Source: Lasiosphaeris hirsuta
Taxonomy: Eukaryota; Ascomycota; Sordariomycetes; Sordariales; Lasiosphaeriaceae
Direction of reading: 5' to 3'
Length of the DNA: 64,000 nucleotides
NCBI GenBank assembly: GCA_030549175.1
Contig: JAUKUA010000010.1
Span: forward strand, 310,001 to 374,000
Shown: positions 6,601 through 54,790 of the stretch, one piece after another
Position numbering within the stretch: position 1 is the first letter of the stretch
How the letters are laid out: the number at the start of each line of letters is the position of its first letter
The notes under the pieces: generated by a model
What the model saw: the letters and a program-made list of their open reading frames with translations, nothing else
Database searches by the model: none
What the model was told of the DNA's origin: nothing
Program-made: the position numbers and the translations under genes

Positions 6601-9600
6601 GACCGCTTCCCCCGCCAGAACCAAGGTGCGCAGGGATGGGACTCTTGCAGGGTCGACGATGCTGGCAACGGTTGGGGTCAAGACGGAAAAGTTGACCTTC
6701 ATTGCCTCCATCGCGGTCGCTAGCCGGCTGGGGTGCATCCTGTCCGCCTCCGAGGCCACGCAAACGCAGCCACCGAACCGAAGCGTGCCGAAGATATCGA
6801 GGAGGCTGAGGTCGAAGACGTAGGCTGAATATTGCAGCGCTCTGGCACCGACACCGAGGCCAAGCCTCGCGCCATGCGCGTCCAAGCTGGCGCAGAGGCC
6901 ACCGTGCGTGAGGACGACGCCTTTGGGAAGACCCGTGGACCCTGAGGTGTAGATGACAACGGCAGCGTTCTCTGGGGTCGGACCCGGCCGAGCCGGTGGG
7001 CCGGCGCCCCCCCGGAGTGTCGCGAACAGGGCGGCGTTGACCGCCAGCTTGTGTGTGACCTCTATATCGTCTAATTTGGCCATGCACTGCTCCGATGTCA
7101 ACACGATGGGTGCCTCGGCATCGTCCAGGATGAGGCGAAGACGTTGCGTCGGGAGGTGGAGGCCCAGAGGCACAACTACTCCGCCGGCCTTGACGACTGC
7201 CAACATGGCAACAATGGTCCACATGGACTTCTCGAAGCAGAGCCCAACCATGACCTCCTCGCGGACCCCAAGGCCCTCGAGATGCGAAGCTAGCTGATCG
7301 GATAGCGCATCCATCTCGGCATATCTCATCGTGCCATCCCATGCGCATACAGCCTGGGCGTCCGGTTGCGAGAGGCACTGCTGGCGAATGCCGTGGTGGA
7401 CGCAATCCCTTGGCGCGGCGTGCCGGACATCCGAGTTCCATAGCCGCAGCTTCTCCACGTCCGAGGGAGCCAGGGCGTCTAGCTCGTCCAGTCTAGCCTC
7501 GGCGCTGCTGGCGATGGTGAGCAGTGCGTGCCGGAAGCTCTCGAGCACAAGCCTGGCCGACTCTTGGTCCATAAAGGACGTCGAGTACTGGAGAGAGAGA
7601 TGGATGCTGTCTTCACCTGCTAGGATGCTAAGACCCGCGTCGTACTCGGTGGGGTCCTCGCCAGAAATGCTTCGTATTGTCAGGCCGGAAGAGCTTGGCG
7701 CGTGTTCCGGAGACCGGCGGAAGTACGACATGGTTGTGTTGAAAAGGCTCCGCTCAGACAGTCGGATGACGTGCTGGATGCTGCTCAACGACGTCCTCTG
7801 GTGGGCAAATGCCTTCAAGAAGTCGTCCTGCACCTGCTGTGCCGCATGGGCTACCGTCGCCGGCAGCTCGCCGAGCCGTATCCGCGAAACCATCATGTTA
7901 ATCATGGGGCCAACTATGTCGTTGGCGCCTGGGACGGGCGCATCCCTGCCATTGGTCAGGTAGCCAAAAGTGATGTCTCTGGATCCCGTGTACCGCGCCA
8001 ACACGACAGCCCATGCCAGCTGCATCATGTTGGCCATGGTCACGCCATGGGCGTCGCGGAAGCCGTGCAGGGCCGCGGGACTCTCCACCCGCGCCGCCAC
8101 GGTTGCCAGGGATCTTGTCTTGGTTGTTGGGGTGGTCGACGGTGGGAGGTAGCACGGCTGCACACCAGCGAGCCGATCAGTCCAGTAGGTCAGGGATTCG
8201 GCTTCCGGTGTCTGCTGCAGAAAGTGTACGTAGGTGCCGTACGAGGGAGCAGGCGATTCCGGTAGAGACCCGTGGTACGCGCTGACGACGTCCCGAAGGA
8301 TCAGGCTAAGCGAGGCGGCATCTACGAGAGCGTGGCTGGCCTCGAGCTTCGCATACGTCGCCCCCGACTTGGCTACGCAGAGAGTTAGGCGATGGGGCGG
8401 CTGGCCGTCTCTATATGTGGCCGGCTCCTCCCGGGAAAGCAATACGGCGACATCGCCTATCCCATGGTGCTGGACGGTGCGGATCTGCGGCCTCCACCGT
8501 TTCAGTACCACCTGGTAGAACAAGTGATCTTGGCTGGTCGAAGTTTGGACAAATGTCGTCCGCAAGATCGAATGTCGTCTGACAACCGCTTCCCAGGCTT
8601 GTGAGAGCCTGCCGAGGTCGACCCGGCTGGCCGCCTCGGAGGTCTGTAGTTCGCATATCTGCTGCACATTGTATGTCGCGTGGCCCTTGATCTGGCTTGT
8701 GGCGATGCCTTGCTGGATCGGAGAGCAAGGATACACATCCTCAACCTCGTCCAAGTCGGTGATTCCTGCTTGAGTGGTGAGGTCGGCCCGTATTCGGGAA
8801 AGTCCCTCGTACGTGAGGTTCATCCCTACGAGATCGCCTGGGTTGATATGTGGCGGTGAAGCAGCAAGCTGCCTGAGAATCTTCTTCAAGGAAAAGCTGC
8901 GAGTTTGAATTCTCGCATCTTGTAAATTGCCATCGGCCGTATCCGCCTTGGCTTTCAGAGCGAGCCGAGCTATGGACGCGCTCTGTAGGACGTCTCGGAC
9001 GGTTATGGAGATAGCATGCTGATTGCGACTTTGGGAGACCACCCGCATTGCGCTGATGGAATCTCCGCCCATGCTGAGGAACGACCGATTCATGGCTACC
9101 TTTTCAGCTGGTAGCCTCAGCACCTCGGCTACAACGGCATGGAGCTTTCGCTGCAAATCATTCTCAGGGGCCTCCGGAGCATCCACCTTGCGGCCCACAG
9201 CGATGCTTTCGAGGTCATCGGTGCTCATCCCCTCAAGCCATTGCATCAGCCTTCGGCGGTCGATCTTGTTGGAGCTGTTCTGGGGTAGGGACCGCAGGGA
9301 TATCCAGGTGCTCGGAATCATGTATGAGGGGACATGTTCGACGAGCTGCTCATGCACGCGCGAGACGAGGGAGTTTGCGAGCTGGGCTTGATCTGGTGCC
9401 GTTGGTTGAAGCTCTTGGATGGCCGGACCCGATGCCTTTAGCTTGCTAAAAGTCAGCAATGCGACGAGACGGGACTCGGCGGGGCCTCGTGTAGGATAAA
9501 GGACGACAGCATCACCGACAGACTCGTGTCGCTTCAGGTGATGCTCAATCTCCCCTATCTCGACTCGCTGACCGCGGATCTTGACCTGGCTGTCCCTCCT

Positions 9601-12600
9601 GCCGACATATGTAAGTGAGCCGTCGCCGTTCTGCCTCACCAAGTCCCCGGTTCGGTAGAAGCGGCGCGCACCACTCGAGGTCCCGCTAGCATCGGCGAAC
9701 CCGTACTGTGCCAGCCAGCCGGGATTGCTGATGAACGCCGCTGAAGATTTCTCGGGGTTGTTGAGGTAACCGCGCGCGAGGAGCGGCCCTTCAATGAGTA
9801 GCTCACCAACAGAACCGATGGGAAGTAGGCGATGGAAATCTTGCTCGTCTACGACCCAGAGACCTCCGGCAACAGCGCGGCCGATGTTTGGCGTCTCTGC
9901 AACGTCGGTAAGCTCGTTACACGTCGAAACGATGCAGCATTCTGCAGGGCCGTACGCGTTGAAGACGCGCATCCGGCCGAGCCAGGGCTCGATGTGCTCG
10001 GCTTGGGTGGCCTCTCCACCAACGACCAGCGTTCGCAACCCCGGCACATCAGATGGGTTGAGGGTGGGGAGGACTCTTGGGGGCAAAAAGGTGTAGTTAA
10101 CATCCATCTTCCTCATCGCCCCTGCTACGTCGCCCAACCGTTCCTCCTCTGACGGCATGCACACGCACCCGCCGAACTGGAGTGTCGTGATCATGTCGTG
10201 CAGCGAGATGTCAAAGGTGAAACTGGCAAATTGGAACGCGCGGGTCTCGGGATCCATACCGAACCTCGCACCATGGGCCTGCATCCCGGTCGACATGCTG
10301 GCGTGCTCGAGCACCACGCCCTTCGGTGTCCCCGTGGAGCCAGAGGTGTAGATGATGAAGGCGGCGTTGCTCGGGCTGGCCCGGCTCTCGACGCGGCGCT
10401 GGGGTGGGTTGGGTAGGGACCTAAGTAGGTCATCATCGACCGCTAGAATGTGACCTATACCGGGGAAGCGAGATATGTGCCGCTGCGTTGTCAGCACGAC
10501 TCGGGCCCTGGTGTCGTCAAGGATGGCCTGTACACGCTGGGCCGGCTCGGCAGCCACAGGAACTACGACACCGCTGGCCTTGAGAACCGCAAGTATGGAT
10601 ACGACGGCCCACTTGGACTTGCCGAAGCATACTGGCACGGCGACCTCAGGTCCAACGCCTAGACCGACCAGCTTATGTGCTAACTTGTCTGCGAGGGCAT
10701 CTAGCTCGCCGTGGCCAAGGTCGCCATCCCAGGAGCAGATGGCTGGTGCGTCGGGACGAGTGAGCCCAGCCTCCCTCACCAGCTCGTGGACCAAGGTCTG
10801 CTTCTTGTTCGGGATCTGGGCGTTCCATCGGACCAGCTGCGCTACTTCCTCGGGGCTGACGATGCTGAGATCGCCGACGAGCACATCCCCCTCCCGCCCT
10901 CCATTCTCTCCATTCTTCTCCAGGATCTGGGCCAGCTGAGTGAGCGTGTGCTGAAACCTGCCGAGGAGGCGACCGAGGAGGGCGCTCGAGACAATTGCCT
11001 CATCGAACCGGACGCTGACCTGCATTGCCGAGGAATCACCGCCCAGGCCCGTTATGCACTCAACGGAAAGGCCATAGTCATCAGCCCCCGTGCTTGGCGC
11101 GCTGTAGAGCTCTAACCCGAGCAGAGGCGCAGTCATGAGGCTGCTTCGAACTTCGGCGGGCTGTACGGTGAAAAGATGGCCAATGTCCAGTCTGACGCCG
11201 ATAAGACGGTGTATGTTCTGCAGCCCTGTATGCTCTACACGGCAGCGTCAGTGTTTTCTGTTTCGAGCCGTGCCGTGCTAGAAGCAAGCCGGGAGGGACA
11301 TAACATATACGTACCAAAGGGTATCATCGACACCATCTGCTGCTGTACGGCAGCTAGGTAGTCGACGACTGGTTCTGTCTTGTCGATGCACATGCGCACT
11401 GGCACCGTTGTTATTGTCGGCGCTAGCATATCAAAGATGCCCCTGACGGGCGCGGTCCGCCCTGTGAGAACAGTTCCAAAGACCACATCAGCACCGCTTT
11501 GCGAAGAGATGACCAGCGCCCATGCCGCTCGCAGAAAGGCGGCCATGGTGATGTGGCTCGGCCTTGGTGGTATTGTGAACTCGCGTGTCATCGTCTGGGT
11601 TGGGTTGGGCTGGGGGGATGACTTTGGCTGCGGAGGGAACGGGTCGGGGACTTTGCCGCCCAGCTGCGACCGCCAGAAAGATTCAGCTGCTACTATGCTG
11701 CACTTGGTCAGGTAGCTGATGAATCTGTTGAATGGTGGCGAGGGAGGGATGCTGTATTGTCCATGATACAGGTGCGCGGCGGCGTCGAACAGTCTCGCCC
11801 AGCTCCAGCCATCATAAACGCCATGGTGTGCAGTGAATGCGAAATACTGCTGGCCCTTTGCGACACCAAGGATGGCAAGACGTACCAGGGGCGACCCGTA
11901 CGTCATCAAATCCTTGATGCTATCCGCCAGATATTGGTCCAGGTCGGGGCCAGAGAACCATGTAATGTCGTCACGTACAACCACCTGCAGAGCCCGGCTA
12001 AGCTCTCCTGGCACGATTCTCGTTCTCAGCAAAGGCGCGGCCCGGGCAACAGCGACCCAGGCCTCTTGAAACCGCGCGCAGTTCATGGTCGGGGGGATCC
12101 GGTACACCCACCTGTTTACGTATGCGCGGGGCTGTTGGGCCGTAATAGCCATCAGACCCTCCTGAAGAGGCGTGCATGGGTAGACGTCTTCAATGGCTTC
12201 AACAGGTATCCCGCACCGCTCAGCAATGCGATGCAATCGCTCGTCGAGCGTTGACGATGCATTACCGCCTCCTTCGCCTTGAAAACGCTCAAGTTCTTGC
12301 CAGAGGGCAAACTGCGGCGGTCCCCTGTCATCTTGGCCGTCCTCCCTCGCCTCCGCCTCTCCCTCCCCTCTCTCTTCCCGGTTCTTCCCCTCTCCACTAC
12401 GCAGCATTGTCTTGCCCTTTTGGTCGATGAAGCTTGCCATATCTGCCAGTTTTGGGCAGCGGAACACATCGGCCACAGTGAGCGCAAGGCCGGCGGCATC
12501 GGCCCTGGACACGAGGCGCATCGCCGTGAACGAGTCACCACCCGAGCGGAGGAAGTGGTCCTTAACGCCAACCTGCCCGAGCTCGACGCCGAGGACATTA

Positions 12601-38040: not shown

Positions 38041-41000
38041 TGACGACAATGCAATGTCCTTTGCATAGCCTAGGCTCGGGTAGCTCTGGTGCCTTGCTCA
38101 CCTGGGGCTGCTTGCCAGTGCCCTTCTCATCGTCTGCGTGCACCCTGTGCGGGCTGACGATGCGGGCGACCCCTTCGCAAATAACCTCTTGACAGACCTT
38201 GCGCCTATTCTCGCTCTGTTCGGCGAGCAAGTCACCAAGCAGTTTATGAGCCGGTCACTCACAGTGTACGACTGCATCATCTTCGCCTCGTGCCCGGTCG
38301 GTATCATGACCGCAGTCGTCAGCGTGATAAGAGTTGCTGCGCCAAATGCTTGGAAAGCGATCGTCGGAAGGGCTATGGAAAGCCGTGCTGCATCCGAGCT
38401 GGAAGTTCTGTCTTCCACATCGGACGAAGTATGCGAGTTGTCGAACGGCAGTGGCGTTGTCAGGGTGATGGGATCGCCACAAGTTCTGGAATTAATTTAC
38501 ATGGATGAGCGTAAGGATGAGGATAGCTGCGGAATTTTTACTTTGGCTGGGGGTGATATTGGTAACGTCATGGTCAATGGTAAGTTCCTCAGAGCTAGAT
38601 GATCGAGAGAATCATTTAACAGTCCCGCCTTCACAGATCGGAACGATCGCCGGGAATCGCCCCGATCCGCTCCCAACATATCACTCAACCTTGGGGCGAC
38701 GTTTAGCGGGGGGATGCTAGGTTGACAGCGTTGGCAGCATTCGGCGTCGTGGCCCAGCTCGGTGTGTTGGTGTATGGCACCTTGATAATATACTACCCTC
38801 CGTGGGCATCTGTATTCACGAAGGACGATGAGCCGGTTGCTCCCGCGGCATTTCCTATTATGGCGGCCGGCGCGCTCATGGTCACGGCTGGCATGTTCCT
38901 CTGCGCCGCAGTTGTCGAAAGAAAAACGGACGAAACCACATGGAGAAGGAATCTAGCTAGGACCGGAGGGGGTCCCGAGACAGAAGACACTGACAAGTTT
39001 TCTTTGCTCTGATTACAGAAGGAGAAGGTCGTCAACGACCAAACTTTCGGATCGTACGCCATCTTCGCCGAGAATTAGCGGGGGTCTATTTTGACGTCTC
39101 GGCTTCAAAATGATCCACCGGCCGACTCTACACCAACTGACTCCATCATGGCCAACTCTGCACTAACTGACTCTGCAATGACCAGCTCTATGCCGACCAA
39201 CCCTGCACCGACCTCTACACCGACCATCTCTGCACCGACCGCCTCTGCTCCGACCCGGGGGCTCTACCATTCTCAGTTACTATCCGAGATAGGAGCGCTT
39301 GTGGCGGTGCCACTTAGCACCCTCGGATTTGCTCTCCAGTTTACCGGGCTGCGACTCATGAATTGGTCGGCGACCATGGCGCAGCTTATCGGCATGGTGC
39401 TTATGACGGCTCTGAGGGTCTGGATCCGTCTAGACCTGGCTGATCGCCCGGCTACGAAGACAGCTGCCACTGGATACGAGCTTGATTGGGTTGCATTGCA
39501 ACTTGCGACAGAGAGACGCGACTTTTGGCCGAAGAAGAGAGGGAGCAGCGGCACCTCCAAGGACGCTCTGTGGTTCATCAGCAATCCAGCCGTCACAGAA
39601 ACAGACCGCCCGATCCACAGTACAGAAGATCAACCCTGGAAAGCGAGACAGCGTCTTGGAAGATTGACCAACTGGCGTGGGGGCCCTCATAGAATGGCCA
39701 AGACCGTTTCGGCAGCTATCACGTGTGTCGTAGAGAATCTAGCCGGCCTCGAGGATCTTCAATGGTCCCTGAACGCGGTCTAGTCTACCGACGAGACCAG
39801 TGAAGGAAACCAGCCATCCCGACTGAAATTTTCTCTTGGAGACAAGCTTGCCGATGAGATTGAAGCAGCTTTGTCATTGTGGGAGTACTCGCTGTCCAAG
39901 GTTCGCTGGCGTCCAGACGGCGCGACACCTCCAGACGTTGCGTCACCACTAAGATTCCTGGGGCCTGCAAGCTAGGCATCTCGCCGGGATATCCTTTGGT
40001 GGGGCGGCGCCTCGGCATATGGCCTCTTGAGACTCGCAAAGCCCAAGGCGACAGGTGGGGAAGGGTCCTACGGATTGCGCTTTTGAGATATCCGGAGCCC
40101 AAGGCTTTGTAAATTCCAGACCGCTGGATGGGATGAGCCCGATAACTACACAGAGAAGCTTCAATCAGAATCATCATGTGACGGGTATGATCTAACATCG
40201 CCATCTCTGAGATCGATGGGAGAATTATTAGCTCAGGATCTGTTTCTGGATTTCATGTTTACCGTCGCAAAGCGTCTTTCAAAGCCAATTTCTGGCGAAC
40301 CGGCAGCAACCATATCGAGGAGCGGCCCCATAACAGGCAGTCATTTCAGCTTGAGCACCGAAAGCTTCAGACAATGGTGCAACAGATCCAGCAGACTGGC
40401 CTCGCAACAGCCGACGAAGCCTGGACTCTGATAATCCCTCCACTCAGCCGCTAGGGGTGCCTTCCCCTACCGACCGGCATCATCGGGCAGATACGAGAAC
40501 GCGCAAGAGGCCATGAAGAAACTAGACGCTGGGACCGGGTTGGTGAAATTTACACAAGTCTCCTAGAGATTTGTAGGACTTTTGAGCCTCAAGACGCAAC
40601 ATACCACAGGGCCGCGGCAGCCATCGTGGATGTCTCTCGAATTATCAGCTCAACACGGAAGCTGCAAGAGGAGCAGCTACGCCGCAGGACAGACTTTGAC
40701 CGATTGAAAATTGCGGAACACAACCTAGAGGAGAAGATCAAGAAACTAGATCCGGTAGTGAAGTTCTACTTGGCAAAGGTTTACGAACTAGAGAAACGGC
40801 TAGATTGCTGCGATGAAGCATGGAAATCGCCTACTGTTCTAACAAACAACAAACCAGCTCCGCTGGAATTCTTTACAGATTCTCAGCTCATTTCTGATGT
40901 CCGAAGGAACAACCGGGACACGAAAACTTCCGACATTTTCGGCTGGACTGCACTACATTACGCCACACAGCGCGGCTCTGCGTGGATACAAAATATTGCG

Positions 41001-42357
41001 GACACAGACCAAAATCCGAGGGCAACTGACCTTGCGGAATGGACACCGCTGCACTACGCGGCTGAACGAGGGGATGAGTCGACTGTTGCACTGCTCTTAC
41101 AACATGGGGCAGACGCGGATATGCGGGGAAGGGATGGGATGGGACCGTTGCATTGTGCAGCGAATGGGGGTTATAGTGGAGTTGTCACGCGTTTGCTTGA
41201 CGCCGGAGCAAACGGGGGTATCCGAGATAACTCTCGAAGTACACCGCTGCATTGGGCGTCATGGCGCGGAGACACGAACACTGTCGCCTCCCTCATGAAG
41301 AAGCGGCCAGATGAAACGGCACGAGATGGTTACGGAAGAACAGCATTGCATCTGGCAGCCCTGAACGGGAACAAAGAAGTAGTGGAAATCCTATCCCGGG
41401 AGAAGGGAGATATCGATGCCAAGGATCGTGATGGCAGAACGCCTTTACACTTGGCAGCGCAAATCGGAAAGAAAGAGGTCGTGGAGAGCTTACTACAAAA
41501 CAATGGTAATGCTAACGCTAAGGATAACGATCAAATGACGGCGATAGTCTACGCAATTGAGTGTGGATCCAACACAATTGTCGAGTTGCTGGTTAACCAT
41601 GAGGCTGAGGTGAACTACTCGTATTTCCCAAATGTGAGCTATCCTAACCCAACAAGGTAGACCCGTCGTGGAATAACTAGCTAACCTTGCATTCTTGGAT
41701 GCTATAGCTTGTAAGTCAGCTCTAGACCTCTTTGTGAAAAAACTAGTTAACCTTACTTTCTTTGGCCATTATAGTATGTAAGTCGGCTCCGGACTTCTTT
41801 GTGAAATAACTAGTTAACCTTGCTTTCTTTGGCTGTTATGGCTGTTATGGCTGTTATAGCATGTAAGTCAGCTCTAGACCTCTTAGTAGAATAACTATTC
41901 AACCTTGCTTTCCTTGGCTGTTATAGGGTGTAAGTCAGCCCTGGACCTCTCTGTGGAATAACTAGCTAACCTTACTTTCTTTGGCTATTATAGCTTGTAA
42001 GTCAGCTCTGGACCTCATTGTGGAATAACTAGTTAACCTTGCATTCTTTGACTGTTATAGATTGTAAGTCAGCCTTGGACCTCTTTGTAGAATAGCGAGT
42101 TAACCTTACCTTCTTTGGCTAATGTAGCGGGTAAACAAGTCTCGTCTGAACTACGCAGAATCTTACTAAAATCATAACTAGTCACCGCTATCGCAAGCTG
42201 TGGAAATCGGGAATAAAGCCATGGTTGAGCTTCTGCTCAAAAGCGGTGCCAAATAGGATCTAAATGGCAACCCTAGACCGACGCCAATAACATTAGCTGC
42301 GCGGGGAAGGAATGATGCTATGATTGCGCTGTTAAAGTCGGAAAACTGCGGCAGGTG
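38041..42357 (+). pseudogene. decayed large membrane/ankyrin-repeat protein
   Basis: Plus-strand pieces are collinear with a fungal family of long proteins with N-terminal membrane helices and C-terminal ankyrin repeats. Landmarks: FGEQVTKQFMSRSL and a helix from 38160; a plausible GTAAGT..CACAG intron at 38580-38637; helices at 38740-38930 and 39280-39420; a coiled region near 40630-40800; ankyrin repeats at 40940-41650. After the intron array, further repeat remnants with VELLLKSGAK and LAARGRNDAM lie at 42182-42357. One frame from 38722 onward is cut by TGA 39010, TAG 39076, TAG 39781, TAG 39973 and TGA 40084, all in the same phase. A frameshift lies near 38710 beside a G run, and another TAG in the last ankyrin piece. 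Three TAG and two TGA stops fit CAG and TGG codons changed by transitions, as RIP would give (inference). Confidence 0.78.
41657..42181 (+). repeat. head-to-tail array of intron-like units with 3-nt spacers
   Basis: Six tandem units start at 41711, 41778, 41863, 41930, 41997 and 42064. Five are exactly 67 bp. One is 85 bp because a 9-bp block (GGCTGTTAT) is triplicated. Each starts GTAAGT, carries a TTAACC/CTAACC box about 38 nt in, a pyrimidine-rich stretch, and ends TAG plus exactly three bases (TAT, CAT, GGT, CTT, ATT, CGG). A partial copy (41657-41710, GTAGAC start, ending TAG then CTT) precedes the array. A diverged intron-like piece (42131-42181, GTAAAC to ACTAG) closes it. Coding ankyrin sequence flanks both ends. 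The array is either tandemly duplicated spliceosomal introns separated by one-codon exons, or a minisatellite inside one larger intron. Confidence 0.9.
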
Positions 42358-51314: not shown

Positions 51315-53405
51315 ATGTCGGCCAAGATCAACATAGTAAGTCCTTGTTTTGTTTCCCTGTTGGACCAGCAGAGCACAACGCGGTTGCTTGTTTCCTTGCC
51401 GGATGTGTTGCTTCTTTCCTTGTCGGACCAGCATGAGCACAGCGTGGCTGCCTTGTTGTGCCCTTGTCGGACCACAAGCACAGCGCGGCTGCGTTGTTGT
51501 TCCCCTGTCGGTAGCGTTGTTTGATTCCCTGGGACCACAAGCACAGCGCGCAGCGCACGCAATCAAACCCAGATCCAATCGTCGGCCGCTGACATTCCAC
51601 TTGACAGGTTGCTGCTCCTCAGGCCTCTCAGCTTGCCATCGTTGCCAGAACTCCCAAGATGTCGGCTCAGATCAACACGGTAAGCCTTGTTGTTCCTTGT
51701 CGGTTGTTTCCTTGTCAGCAGCCTTGTGTCCTTGCCACGGGCACTGCGGCAGCGCCGTCATTCAGACCCCAGATCCCATTGGCAAAACTTTCCTTTTGCC
51801 TGTCGGGACAAGCACTGAGCACAAGGCAGCGTTGTTTGATTCCTGTTGGCAGCGAGCGTTGTTGATTCCCTGCGGCAGCGCTGTTTGATATTCCCTGCGG
51901 CAGCCTTGTTCCTTGTCGGCAGCCTTGTTTGTTGTCTTGTCGGACAAGCACTGGCGGTAGCGCACGTCAATTAAAACTTGAGATCCAATCGGCCGTGCCG
52001 CTAACATTGACTCGTAGGCCACGATCCCCAGTGAATCGGCCGCCAAAAATGACGAGCAAGCTGCTCCTTCGAACCCCATCGGCACTCACTCGCACGCTGC
52101 TTCTTTGAACCCCACCAAAATTGACGAGCAAGCTGCCGCTTTGAACCCCGCCGCCTCCACAATCCTGGAAGCAGAAGAGGCTGCCATCGCTACGCTCTCG
52201 CTCCCCAGCGAACTGGTCGCGGTACAAGCCATTCTGGACGTTTATAAACCCCAGCGCCTTAGGCAAATCTTTGCGTCCGTCTGCTACCTCCTTACGTACA
52301 ATACCGACCCCCGGGACTACTACTTCATCGTCGATCCTATCGACAGACCGATTCTTACTGGCCGTGGCATTAAAAAATTCGAGCGGCTCATCAACACGTC
52401 TACCAATAGTACCATCCGAATAGTACGTACCGGAGATCCTATCTACCTTTCAGCTCAGTCGTAGCATAATAGCTAATTACCCCTCGGGGACTCTAGGGTT
52501 TCATCACCGAAACTGGCGAGATGACCATCATGACCATGCCATACTTTCTCGACCTTGCCCTCCGTGGCGAGTTGATTCATTGGGTCCGTAAAAACATTGC
52601 TGGAGTACATGGTCTCACGCTATGGTACCCTGATGATGATGAGCTTCTCGGAGGACCCCAGTACGTCTGTACCGTCAACTCCCACGGCAAACCTTATGCT
52701 GTGTTTCTGCTTGCCAACTCCGGCAAGCAGGCGGATGCCGACGAGGTAGTCCGCTCGATGCTCCCTGTGATCACACGCGACTATCCCTCGATCAAGATGG
52801 TCGTTCAACTCCAGCTCCGTGGCCTGGATACCGGCACCCACACGCGAGACGCAGACATCAAGGCTCAAGATGTTGCTGGGAAATCTTGCATCGAAGTCTG
52901 GGCTCACAACGGCGTTAAATTGGAAAAGGGTCATCCTTCCTCGGCAGGTGACCTTAAAGATGGCGAATTCCGTCTTCACCTACTCGGCGAGGGTGCCGAG
53001 GACAAGACCGTGCCGGTCTTTCAGTTCTCCGACATTCTCGATATAATTCGCGAGCACTGCAAACAGGGTGTTCCGCTTTCGGCCCACCCCCGCAACGAGG
53101 ATCCCCGGGCCCCCAACAACAACAAGGGCCTGCAGGCCTCGGCATTCCCACTGAATGCCTTGAAGTCTCGCTTCACAGCTATCACCACCAAGTTCCCTGG
53201 TCCGCGTGTAGTGGAGAACAAGCCGTTCTCGTCCCTGTCCGGCGGCGCTCTCGCCACGCGCCGCGGCATGCTGCCCACAGGCACTGCAGGCCTCGGTCCG
53301 ATCAAGGCAGGCGGCAACGGCCGCCGCATCCACGGCACCGCCAGAAACACCCTGGGGAGCCTCTTTCCGGCCCGCCATCTCGTTGGCCGCCTTGTTCGCC
53401 GCTAA
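51315..53405 (+). CDS. unrecognised 468-aa protein with duplicated first exons
   Basis: My model is join(51315..51335, 51608..51679, 52018..52422, 52497..53405), 1407 nt. Exon 1 reads MSAKINI. Exon 2 ends in the near-copy MSAQINT. Exon 3 contains two imperfect copies of a DEQAA-x-x-NP unit. Exons 3 and 4 give a continuous protein with ILDVYKPQRLRQIFASVCYL, FITETGEMTIMTMPYFLDLA and HWVRKNIAGVHGLTLWY, then a basic Gly/Arg-rich tail. Splice sites are GTAAGT, GTAAGC and GTACGT donors with TTGACAG, CTCGTAG and CTCTAG acceptors, plus CTGAC and CTAAC branch boxes. Translation from the second ATG at 51659 is an alternative, giving 444 aa. There is no signal peptide or membrane helix. I do not recognise the family. 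The gene is intact while almost everything around it is broken, which argues that it is under selection or recently arrived. Confidence 0.7.
51336..52017 (+). repeat. minisatellite-bearing paired introns of the 51.3-kb gene
   Basis: Introns 51336-51607 (272 nt) and 51680-52017 (338 nt) are unusually long for this window. Both are built from imperfect repeats around CCTTGTCGG and AGCACAGCGCGGCTG. Their last 35 bases also match (GATCCAATCG.., GGCCG.., CTGAC or CTAACATT, then the acceptor). The exon between them repeats the first exon and its upstream sequence, so exon plus intron was duplicated as a block. Confidence 0.8.
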
Positions 53406-53597
53406 ACGGTTTGGACAGGAGCAACATGAGCATGGTATGGAGTTTTGTTAGGTTTGGGATGTGAAGAGGGGGACAAGGGAAGCGAGACTTGGTTGCCAAA
53501 GGGAGGCTGGCTCGTCAGCGTGATAGAACCCTTCTACTCTTCTCTCTTGACTTTTACCCACCTCGGTCATAGCTAGGTAGTGCTAGCCAGCGTAATA

Positions 53598-53764
53598 GAA
53601 ACACTCTGCTCTTTCTTAGTCTGTTGATTTCTGCGAAACACTATGGTGATACTAGAAACACTTCGCTCTTTCCTAGTCTGATTTCTACGAAACACTACGG
53701 TGGCACTGGAAACACTCTACTCTTTCTTAGTCTGTGATTTCTACGAAAACTCTGGGTGACACTA
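53598..53764. repeat. three tandem copies of a 54-57 bp unit
   Basis: Units begin with GAAACAC at 53598, 53655 and 53709 (57, 54 and 56 bp). Each contains CTCTTTC, TAGTCTG, ATTTCT and CGAAA in the same order. A more diverged partial copy may precede it from about 53522. The array lies 190 bases downstream of the stop of the 51.3-kb gene. Confidence 0.85.
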
Positions 53765-54790
53765 GTGGCAGGGGTCCCCCGTGAATACGGCTCTCACAAG
53801 AACCGTAGGCATAGCTTCTCATGCAAAGCTGAAGTGGTCTCGGCAGATTACGCAAGTTGCTTCGGGCCATTGTCATCGATCGCCGATCCTTCTACAGCGA
53901 CCTCAAGTACGAAAAAACATGGTCCTATACTCCCCAACTCCTGGACAGTGGGACATGATCCTCGTCGAATTTGAGCAAAAACTGGAGCAGGTTCCGACTA
54001 ACACTATTTAGCAAAAAGAAACCCTCTTACTGGCAGGCCTAATCCACTATTATCCCCATATGCCGGCTATGCGATATACTCCCTAGTTCTTAAAGAACTA
54101 GAGGCCTAAGACGCCGGAGATGGTAGAGCGGATAAGGTCGATGACGATACTATAAGGTGTTAAAGACGTCGGGGAATATCTCGAACAATTTTCTAGCTCC
54201 TCAATACTCCATGCGATAGTTGAGGGGCCTAGAGAGTTTTTCTCACCGTCTCAATGAGTGCTAATATTCCTTCCCGGCTATAAAAAGCCTGACAGTGCTC
54301 CATTCAGTGTATGGCAACCTCCGCGCAATGCCGCGCAGCGGCTGTCTGGATTCGAGACTGCTTCACCATAACGTGGTAGTATTCGAAGGTGGGAACAACG
54401 TGCCCGCATCTCGCTCGATTCTCGCAAGCTTCCCCATGCGTATTCCGGTTTTATTCTTCACGAGTATCTTCCCGAGCCTTCCAACCCCTTCCTATTAGAG
54501 GACAGGCTACAGAATACAGAGTACAGTAGCATTTGCTGCCACCTTTGCTTTTGTCTTATATCCAGCTTACTGCGCCCGGTCTAACTACTCTCACTGGTGC
54601 AGAGCCTTCTCAATGTCGAGACCCTCGCAAAAATACCGAAGCGATATGAAAATCTCAGACCTCTTCGGGTTGGCGTCTCTTTTACCATCATAGCTGGTTC
54701 TATAGTGAGGCTATAGTCGGCCAGTCCCACTGCTTTTTATTATAGTCACAAAATATAGTTGATCGACATGAAATACACAGTTCACAATTT

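Follow-up and report, generated by a model that had tools for sequence, protein, structure and literature searches.

It has been reported that the NACHT-ankyrin (nank) genes of the truffle Tuber melanosporum are diversified through the splicing of codon-sized (3-bp) microexons (passages in PMC3689799, PMC4986451 and PMC10197012). As these passages describe it, many such exons lie in genes of the NLR type, diversification of the sensor is proposed, and splicing is alternative. Series of frame-preserving exons of exactly 3 nt are also what we find, from DNA, in five arrays (A1 to A5) of the Sordariomycete Lasiosphaeris hirsuta (Sordariales), one of which, A4, lies in a HET-NACHT-ankyrin gene and could be skipped without loss of frame. 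Tuber is a Pezizomycete, and the abstract of Iotti et al. (2012) on its nank genes reportedly likens them to the microexon genes of Schistosoma. An earlier note on the present locus knew of no array of this regularity; the Tuber exons are a precedent, and the variant features are new. These are another fungal class, the presence of arrays in HET-domain genes where no NACHT was found, homogenised introns combined with codons that diversify in the DNA, and a codon-by-codon match to a conserved peptide, the Tuber genes being compared here as passages citing them portray them. Among the titles listed in literature searches, which excluded subscription papers and preprints, there was no further report of codon-sized exons in HET genes, in Sordariales or in fungal introns.

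Other described systems share part of this design. The Podospora het-d/het-e and hnwd genes are NLR/het genes with repeats of high internal conservation (PMC12222747, PMC2873952 and PMC10197012), and in both cases repeats of allorecognition-type genes evolve in concert and diversify; in Podospora the repeat is a coding unit, whereas in L. hirsuta it is an intron, with one codon varying per unit. The A4 gene (L047) also has ankyrin repeats of this internally conserved kind, with eight LLFSA-type units, of which four are identical across 27 residues, beside its microexon array. In Trichoderma virens, likewise a filamentous Sordariomycete, Xlr2 has a regulated microexon, and functional microexons are called undescribed in filamentous fungi until then (PMC11121469); that is one microexon in a transcription factor, in contrast to arrays of codons. 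The stwintrons and sister stwintrons of Hypoxylaceae (PMC8469720, PMC9024468 and PMC12403724) are unusual adjacent introns in Sordariomycetes, but they are described as nested, with a splice element of one intron interrupted by another, whereas in L. hirsuta complete donors and acceptors flank every codon, and we do not class the arrays as stwintrons. Introner-like elements are near-identical spliceosomal introns in a fungus (PMC4457414) and are described as spreading to many places. A genome search with the window unit, as the earlier note had advised, returned its own locus alone, and the units of the two gene families are not clearly alike, so that we do not class the arrays as introner-like elements either; the same architecture does, however, recur in four further arrays. 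These offer a case, readable in DNA, in which splice boundaries delimit hypervariable codons singly in self/non-self-type genes, and three questions become testable: the splicing of runs of 3-nt exons, the separation of every codon by introns, and the diversification of fungal receptors.

The window, a stretch of 64,000 nt of L. hirsuta (contig JAUKUA010000010.1, positions 310,001 to 374,000), contains A1, read directly as eight introns and seven exons of exactly one codon at 41634-42181, in frame with ankyrin exons upstream and downstream (Table). The six consecutive GTAAGT..TAG units described in the earlier note are present, with donors at 41711, 41778, 41863, 41930, 41997 and 42064, and in every one the terminal TAG is followed by exactly 3 nt. 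Five of these units are 67 bp, as had been said, and the sixth is 85 bp (in order 67, 85, 67, 67, 67, 67), the longer one, at 41778-41862, consisting of 67 bp and two additional copies of the 9-bp GGCTGTTAT in the pyrimidine-rich end of the intron. The spacers are CTT, TAT, CAT, GGT, CTT, ATT and CGG, and the branch-like motif is not constant (TTAAC, CTAAC). Outside A1, a spacing of 3 nt is not enriched in the window (12 matches, against 9 to 18 for spacings 0-12). Further short tandem repeats in the window have periods of 54, 41 and 26 bp (53596-53765, 51418-51511 and 51828-51904), and reading the first two revealed no GTAAGT..TAG unit.

Table. Features of the window array and its flanks (window positions), and of the five arrays of the genome (contig positions in kb).
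Feature	Position	Strand	Remarks
More upstream portion of the gene, with homology to paralogue L027; in-frame stops 39781, 40452	39298..40454	+	
Upstream ankyrin-coding stretch, stop-free frame, ends ..NYSYFPN in phase 0	40455..41633	+	Ank_2 PF12796, E=1.7e-59
Intron 1, GTGAGC..TAG, 74 nt; unit-like in 3' part only	41634..41707	+	phase 0; homologous break point
One-codon exon CTT	41708..41710	+	direct read
Intron 2, GTAAGT..TAG, 64 nt	41711..41774	+	direct read
One-codon exon TAT	41775..41777	+	direct read
Intron 3, 82 nt (9-bp repeats add 18 nt)	41778..41859	+	
One-codon exon CAT	41860..41862	+	direct read
Intron 4, 64 nt	41863..41926	+	direct read
One-codon exon GGT	41927..41929	+	direct read
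Intron 5, 64 nt	41930..41993	+	direct read
One-codon exon CTT	41994..41996	+	direct read
Intron 6, 64 nt	41997..42060	+	direct read
One-codon exon ATT	42061..42063	+	direct read
Intron 7, 64 nt	42064..42127	+	direct read
One-codon exon CGG	42128..42130	+	direct read
Intron 8, GTAAAC..TAG, 51 nt; without resemblance to units	42131..42181	+	
Downstream ankyrin-coding exon (SPLSQAVEIGNKAMVELLLKSGAK, then in-frame TAG stop 42254-42256); paralogue homology on to 42334	42182..42256	+	
Array A1	window	+	6 codons before GTRAGT donor, plus CGG before GTAAAC
Array A2	C2:440.4-441.5 kb		15 codons before GTRAGT donor
Array A3	C7:3364.7-3367.2 kb		36 codons before GTRAGT donor
Array A4	C7:5936.2-5938.1 kb	-	26 codons before GTRAGT donor
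Array A5	C12:249.6-250.8 kb	-	18 codons before GTRAGT donor

The start of the array had been placed at GTAGAC 41657. The upstream ankyrin frame runs in phase 0 to 41633, and since a donor GTGAGC at 41634 keeps phase 0 while GTAGAC 41657 is in phase 2 and breaks the frame, the first donor is GTGAGC 41634; homology among related ankyrin genes likewise stops there. What had been seen as a 5' partial unit does contain unit-like sequence, but forms the 3' portion of a first intron that is complete. The alternative of a single 525-nt intron from GTAGAC fails, as the frame would not be kept, whereas the expectation that splicing unit by unit yields seven one-codon exons and keeps the frame agrees with both flanking ankyrin frames, the downstream one (SPLSQAVEIGNK..) beginning at 42182 in phase 0.

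The in-frame stops of the window gene (39781, 40452 and 42254) fall inside stretches that align to paralogue L027, and the A1 units have diverged, with an intron diversity of 0.141. Because of these stops and the lost homogeneity of its array, the gene is probably a pseudogene whose array is no longer homogenised. Three of its ORFs were scanned for domains, and matches came from the ankyrin ORF alone; a nucleotide-binding domain was not found in the three. As a probable pseudogene, the window gene makes A1 a poor site at which to seek function, yet it led to intact copies.

The L. hirsuta genome contains four more arrays of the A1 design, with 15-36 codons each; one belongs to a HET-NACHT-ankyrin gene and the others to three HET-domain genes. 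A genome-wide search with the pattern GTAAGTN{45,75}YAGNNNGTAAGT gave 60 matches on the forward strand and 43 on the reverse, and its reversed-pattern control 1 and 1, a contrast that excludes a chance origin of the pattern. At least 91 of these 103 matches fall in the five arrays (100 matches listed), and of 101 YAG-to-GTAAGT spacings counted at the five array loci over the range 0-12, 100 are of 3 nt. The nine matches outside the arrays, among those listed, comprise four rows of a 13-bp microsatellite and five isolated pairs. The former, at C7:2956830-2956939, were rejected as an intron array, the microsatellite GTAAGTGCAGTGT fitting the splice pattern through its own repeat, and the latter (L049-L053) belong to no series and are chance-like. 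A donor-variant pattern matched three times on the forward strand and not at all on the reverse, while its control matched 4 and 1 times; the edge of A3 accounts for one of the three, and no extra array of that type was found. A4-like ankyrin paralogues were sought by both flanking segments, and apart from itself the post-array segment has a single weak match.

Units of A2, A3 and A5 are alike, as are those of A1 and A4 (0 of 1000 shuffles each). Across the two families, four of the six pairs show nothing notable (118-501 of 1000 shuffles) and two, A1-A3 and A1-A5, are weakly alike (12 of 1000). From this we infer two founder arrays, each predating the paralogues that bear it. The A4 gene encodes HET (PF06985), NPHP3_N of the NACHT type (E=2.6e-40) and Ank_2 (E=3.3e-58), with NACHT PF05729 below its cut-off; with a predicted nucleotide-binding domain and repeats present, it is on domain content a fungal NLR. 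Arrays A2, A3 and A5 sit directly upstream of HET-domain (PF06985) frames, and the scanned ORF there shows HET alone. These three frames are ranks 1-3 of the 149 HET matches of the genome with A5 as query, and so their genes look like a HET subfamily. Fifteen further HET loci of the 149 matches (L054-L068) were read over 1.4-1.8 kb upstream of each: at least three strict 3-nt-spaced splice motifs occur in one of the 15 (L055), and a looser motif has three scattered matches in each of L062 and L067. A series of one-codon exons is not general for HET genes. The small contig C2 (602790 bases) carries A1, A2 and several HET matches (for example C2:189641, 442112, 452195, 524413 and 554510), and may belong to a subtelomeric or accessory part of the genome. 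Near A2 and A3, frames that by eye resemble transposase helix-turn-helix segments were noted (L045, about 9166-9406; L046, about 9393-9750).

Within the arrays, variation is concentrated in the codons. Nucleotide diversity in introns and codons, respectively, is 0.141 and 0.511 in A1, 0.038 and 0.514 in A2, 0.008 and 0.570 in A3, 0.030 and 0.624 in A4, and 0.0018 and 0.636 in A5. The minimum number of changes per site is higher in codons than in introns by factors of 4, 9, 60, 11 and 130 in A1 to A5, with binomial P values for the codon excess of 1e-2, 6e-4, 2e-9, 2e-5 and 5e-8 that are indicative only, because the codon copies of an array arise by duplication and are not independent; in A1 the excess is weak (P=0.01). 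In A5, 17 introns of equal length have one variable column in 65, and the codons between them are TTC, GAA, AGA, GGA and TTG. Codon pairs separated by a single step comprise 24 that change the amino acid and 1 that is synonymous, where the code itself has 62 synonymous among 264 sense neighbours. No stop codon occurs among the 101 listed spacers, a weak observation given few distinct codons. The predicted peptides are RTRRLRRLAALRPRR (A2), EDRLRFFDNLNNLNFYFFDDNLFFYDWDRFYDDNYN (A3), LRDWWRRWRRRDWIWDRNDDDWWLLR (A4) and FERGGGFFLGLRFRFFER (A5).

Repeated codon triples, a sign of block duplication, are in excess in A3 (P=0.0026) and not in A1, A2, A4 or A5. The 3' half of the first intron is unit-like in A1, A3 and A5 (0 of 1000 shuffles), marginally so in A2 (51) and not in A4 (408), and the 5' half of the last intron is unit-like in A2, A3 and A5 (0 of 1000) and not in A1 (582) or A4 (131). 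Edges are thus shared on both sides in A3 and A5, at the first intron in A1, at the last in A2 (the first being marginal), and on neither side in A4. Since one half of an edge intron is in these cases common to the units, the unit of duplication is likely to be half-intron, codon and half-intron. The earlier note had proposed that an intron itself was amplified head to tail; the edges suggest, if not in every array, this composite unit rather than an intron alone.

Comparative evidence on splicing comes from a sixth gene, a kinase-HET gene (L055/L069; C7:1401.3-1401.8 kb, minus strand) with six one-codon exons between unrelated introns. Its kinase part was identified by eye, and its orthologues carry PF00069. 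The eight introns, of 48-99 nt, have the donors GTATGT, GTACGT, GTAAGT, GTGAGT, GTAAGC, GTAAGT, GTGAGT and GTAGGA, and show no kinship beyond chance in 28 pairs (9-495 of 500 shuffles reach the score). The exons are GAT, GAA, TAT, CGT, AAC, GCT and GTACAG, the last being of 6 nt rather than 3, and the CGT exon requires an unusual AAG acceptor. Strict YAGNNNGTRNGY motifs number five in 620 nt of the locus (shuffles: mean 0.06, maximum 2, 0 of 20000 reaching 5), and spacings of 0-2 and 4-15 yield none there. Read as spliced, the gene gives ..ITRR-D-E-Y-R-N-A-VQ-VDKTEFPVDNKFA.., and EYRNA recurs at the matching place in four of the 79 proteins found, 49 of them anchored, by a homology query built without the DEYRNA residues. 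In these four, (x)EYRNA stands in one run with IDxT(E/N)(F/Y)PVDNKFA: P0173 (KDEYRNATQIDKTEFPVDNKFA), P0174 of Stipitochalara longipes, Leotiomycetes (KDEYRNAAQIDKTNFPVDNKFA), P0176 of a Cadophora (RSEYRNAENIDITNYPVDNKFA) and P0177 (RNEYRNAANIDITEFPVDNKFA). In the same-genome paralogue L054 the DNA encodes the equivalent segment without a break (VDYGNTRLADDWEILVDNEFA, matched by eye). Three of the six closest models (P0168 of Echria, P0169 of Podospora aff. communis and P0171 of Cladorrhinum) pass from TRR to the VDKTEF-like part and omit the DEYRNA segment; the other three (P0167, P0170 and P0172) are of different build and likewise lack EYRNA, and P0191 of Immersiella terminates at ..AKTRR. 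Because the codons spell DEYRNA and match a peptide conserved in orthologues, the comparison argues strongly for both the splicing-in and the translation of single-codon exons; this supports such splicing around unrelated introns, and does not bear directly on the homogenised arrays.

The four further arrays and the DEYRNA match of the kinase-HET gene bear out the earlier note, and the best reading of the locus remains a tandem series of complete introns separated by one-codon, frame-keeping exons. We put at roughly 0.8 the probability that A1 belongs, in decayed form, to a family of one-codon exon arrays in allorecognition or NLR-type genes, whose intact arrays would be spliced intron by intron into a hypervariable peptide. 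The inner introns, of 61-69 nt, would each be removed singly and always in phase 0, leaving the codons joined in a peptide of 15-37 residues, placed in the ankyrin genes in a loop preceding a C-terminal repeat and in the HET proteins at the N-terminus. Array length would change both ways by tandem duplication, probably of the composite unit. Recombination would homogenise the introns and be the cause of their likeness, and selection, rather than targeted mutation, would maintain or drive the codon differences. Removal of the expanded arrays intron by intron, with the codons included, is likely on the DNA evidence, and recognition is a likely role of the hypervariable segment.

It is unlikely that an array is excised in its entirety as a single long intron or that the one-codon exons are always skipped, leaving the codons absent from protein. 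Skipping everything in A4 would also be in frame, and public models omit such regions (P0001, P0131, P0138, P0127, P0132, P0168, P0169, P0171 and P0191), but spacer nucleotides should then match the introns in variability, yet they have 4-130 times more change per site, and the single codons of the kinase-HET gene spell a peptide conserved in orthologues. That same gene, with equal one-codon exons between unrelated introns, makes it very improbable that the arrays are neutral intronic minisatellites with accidental splice motifs and a triplet that is a mutational hot spot. Copy-number arrays with homogenised units do act like minisatellites, but two unit families (A2/A3/A5 and A1/A4) have one design, the 3-nt spacing holds in all but one of the 101 cases, and the absence of stop codons from the 101 spacers points, weakly for the reason given, the same way.

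As to origin, introns may have been inserted, in the manner of introners or by reverse splicing, between the codons of a once continuous peptide, with tandem expansion following in some paralogues, a scenario we hold to be plausible while leaning against it. It would fit the continuous segment in L054, its presence in the protein models P0173, P0174, P0176 and P0177 (proteins only), and kinase-HET introns mutually unrelated in sequence; cDNA recombination stripping all introns from an ancestral microexon gene would, however, give the same pattern, and the expanded arrays resemble tandem duplicates. More tentative still, and rather doubtful, is an extension of intron-by-intron splicing in which the arrays are a two-level diversity generator, with one-residue cassettes in homogenised introns at the DNA level and skipping of subsets at the RNA level. 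If so, strains would differ in loop length and sequence, and identical splice sites with uniform phase 0 would allow one nucleus to make many in-frame loop variants.

The joined A4 reading is ..LLVKASKVDYEYE-(26 residues)-TPLLRAVEKQ.., with the insert between two ankyrin repeats at what we take to be the finger/hairpin position, and the gene reads in frame both with the array codons and without them. Arrays A2, A3 and A5 would be preceded by short putative start exons, placed by eye and checked for splice strings, and are followed by the HET frame; the start exon of A5 needs a GTTCGT donor. In the ankyrin family, five of 46 proteins were read and four of them aligned. The homology of three, P0138 of Lasiosphaeria hispida, P0127 of Podospora australis and P0132 of Cladorrhinum, stops where the A4 and A1 arrays start, and these continue ..IDYNYKPFVSEP.., ..VNYWYRLGVSEP.. 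and ..VNYWYYIV.., respectively. As GTRAGYGARCC would encode VSEP, two of the three models look as if they read into an intron. P0121, a metagenome protein read outside the alignment, has continuous ankyrin repeats. In L. hirsuta itself, model P0131 ends upstream of A4 and the public model P0001 starts downstream of A2, so that the array is ignored. Taken with the above, this suggests that receptor gene models in several Sordariales are cut short or lack their most variable part.
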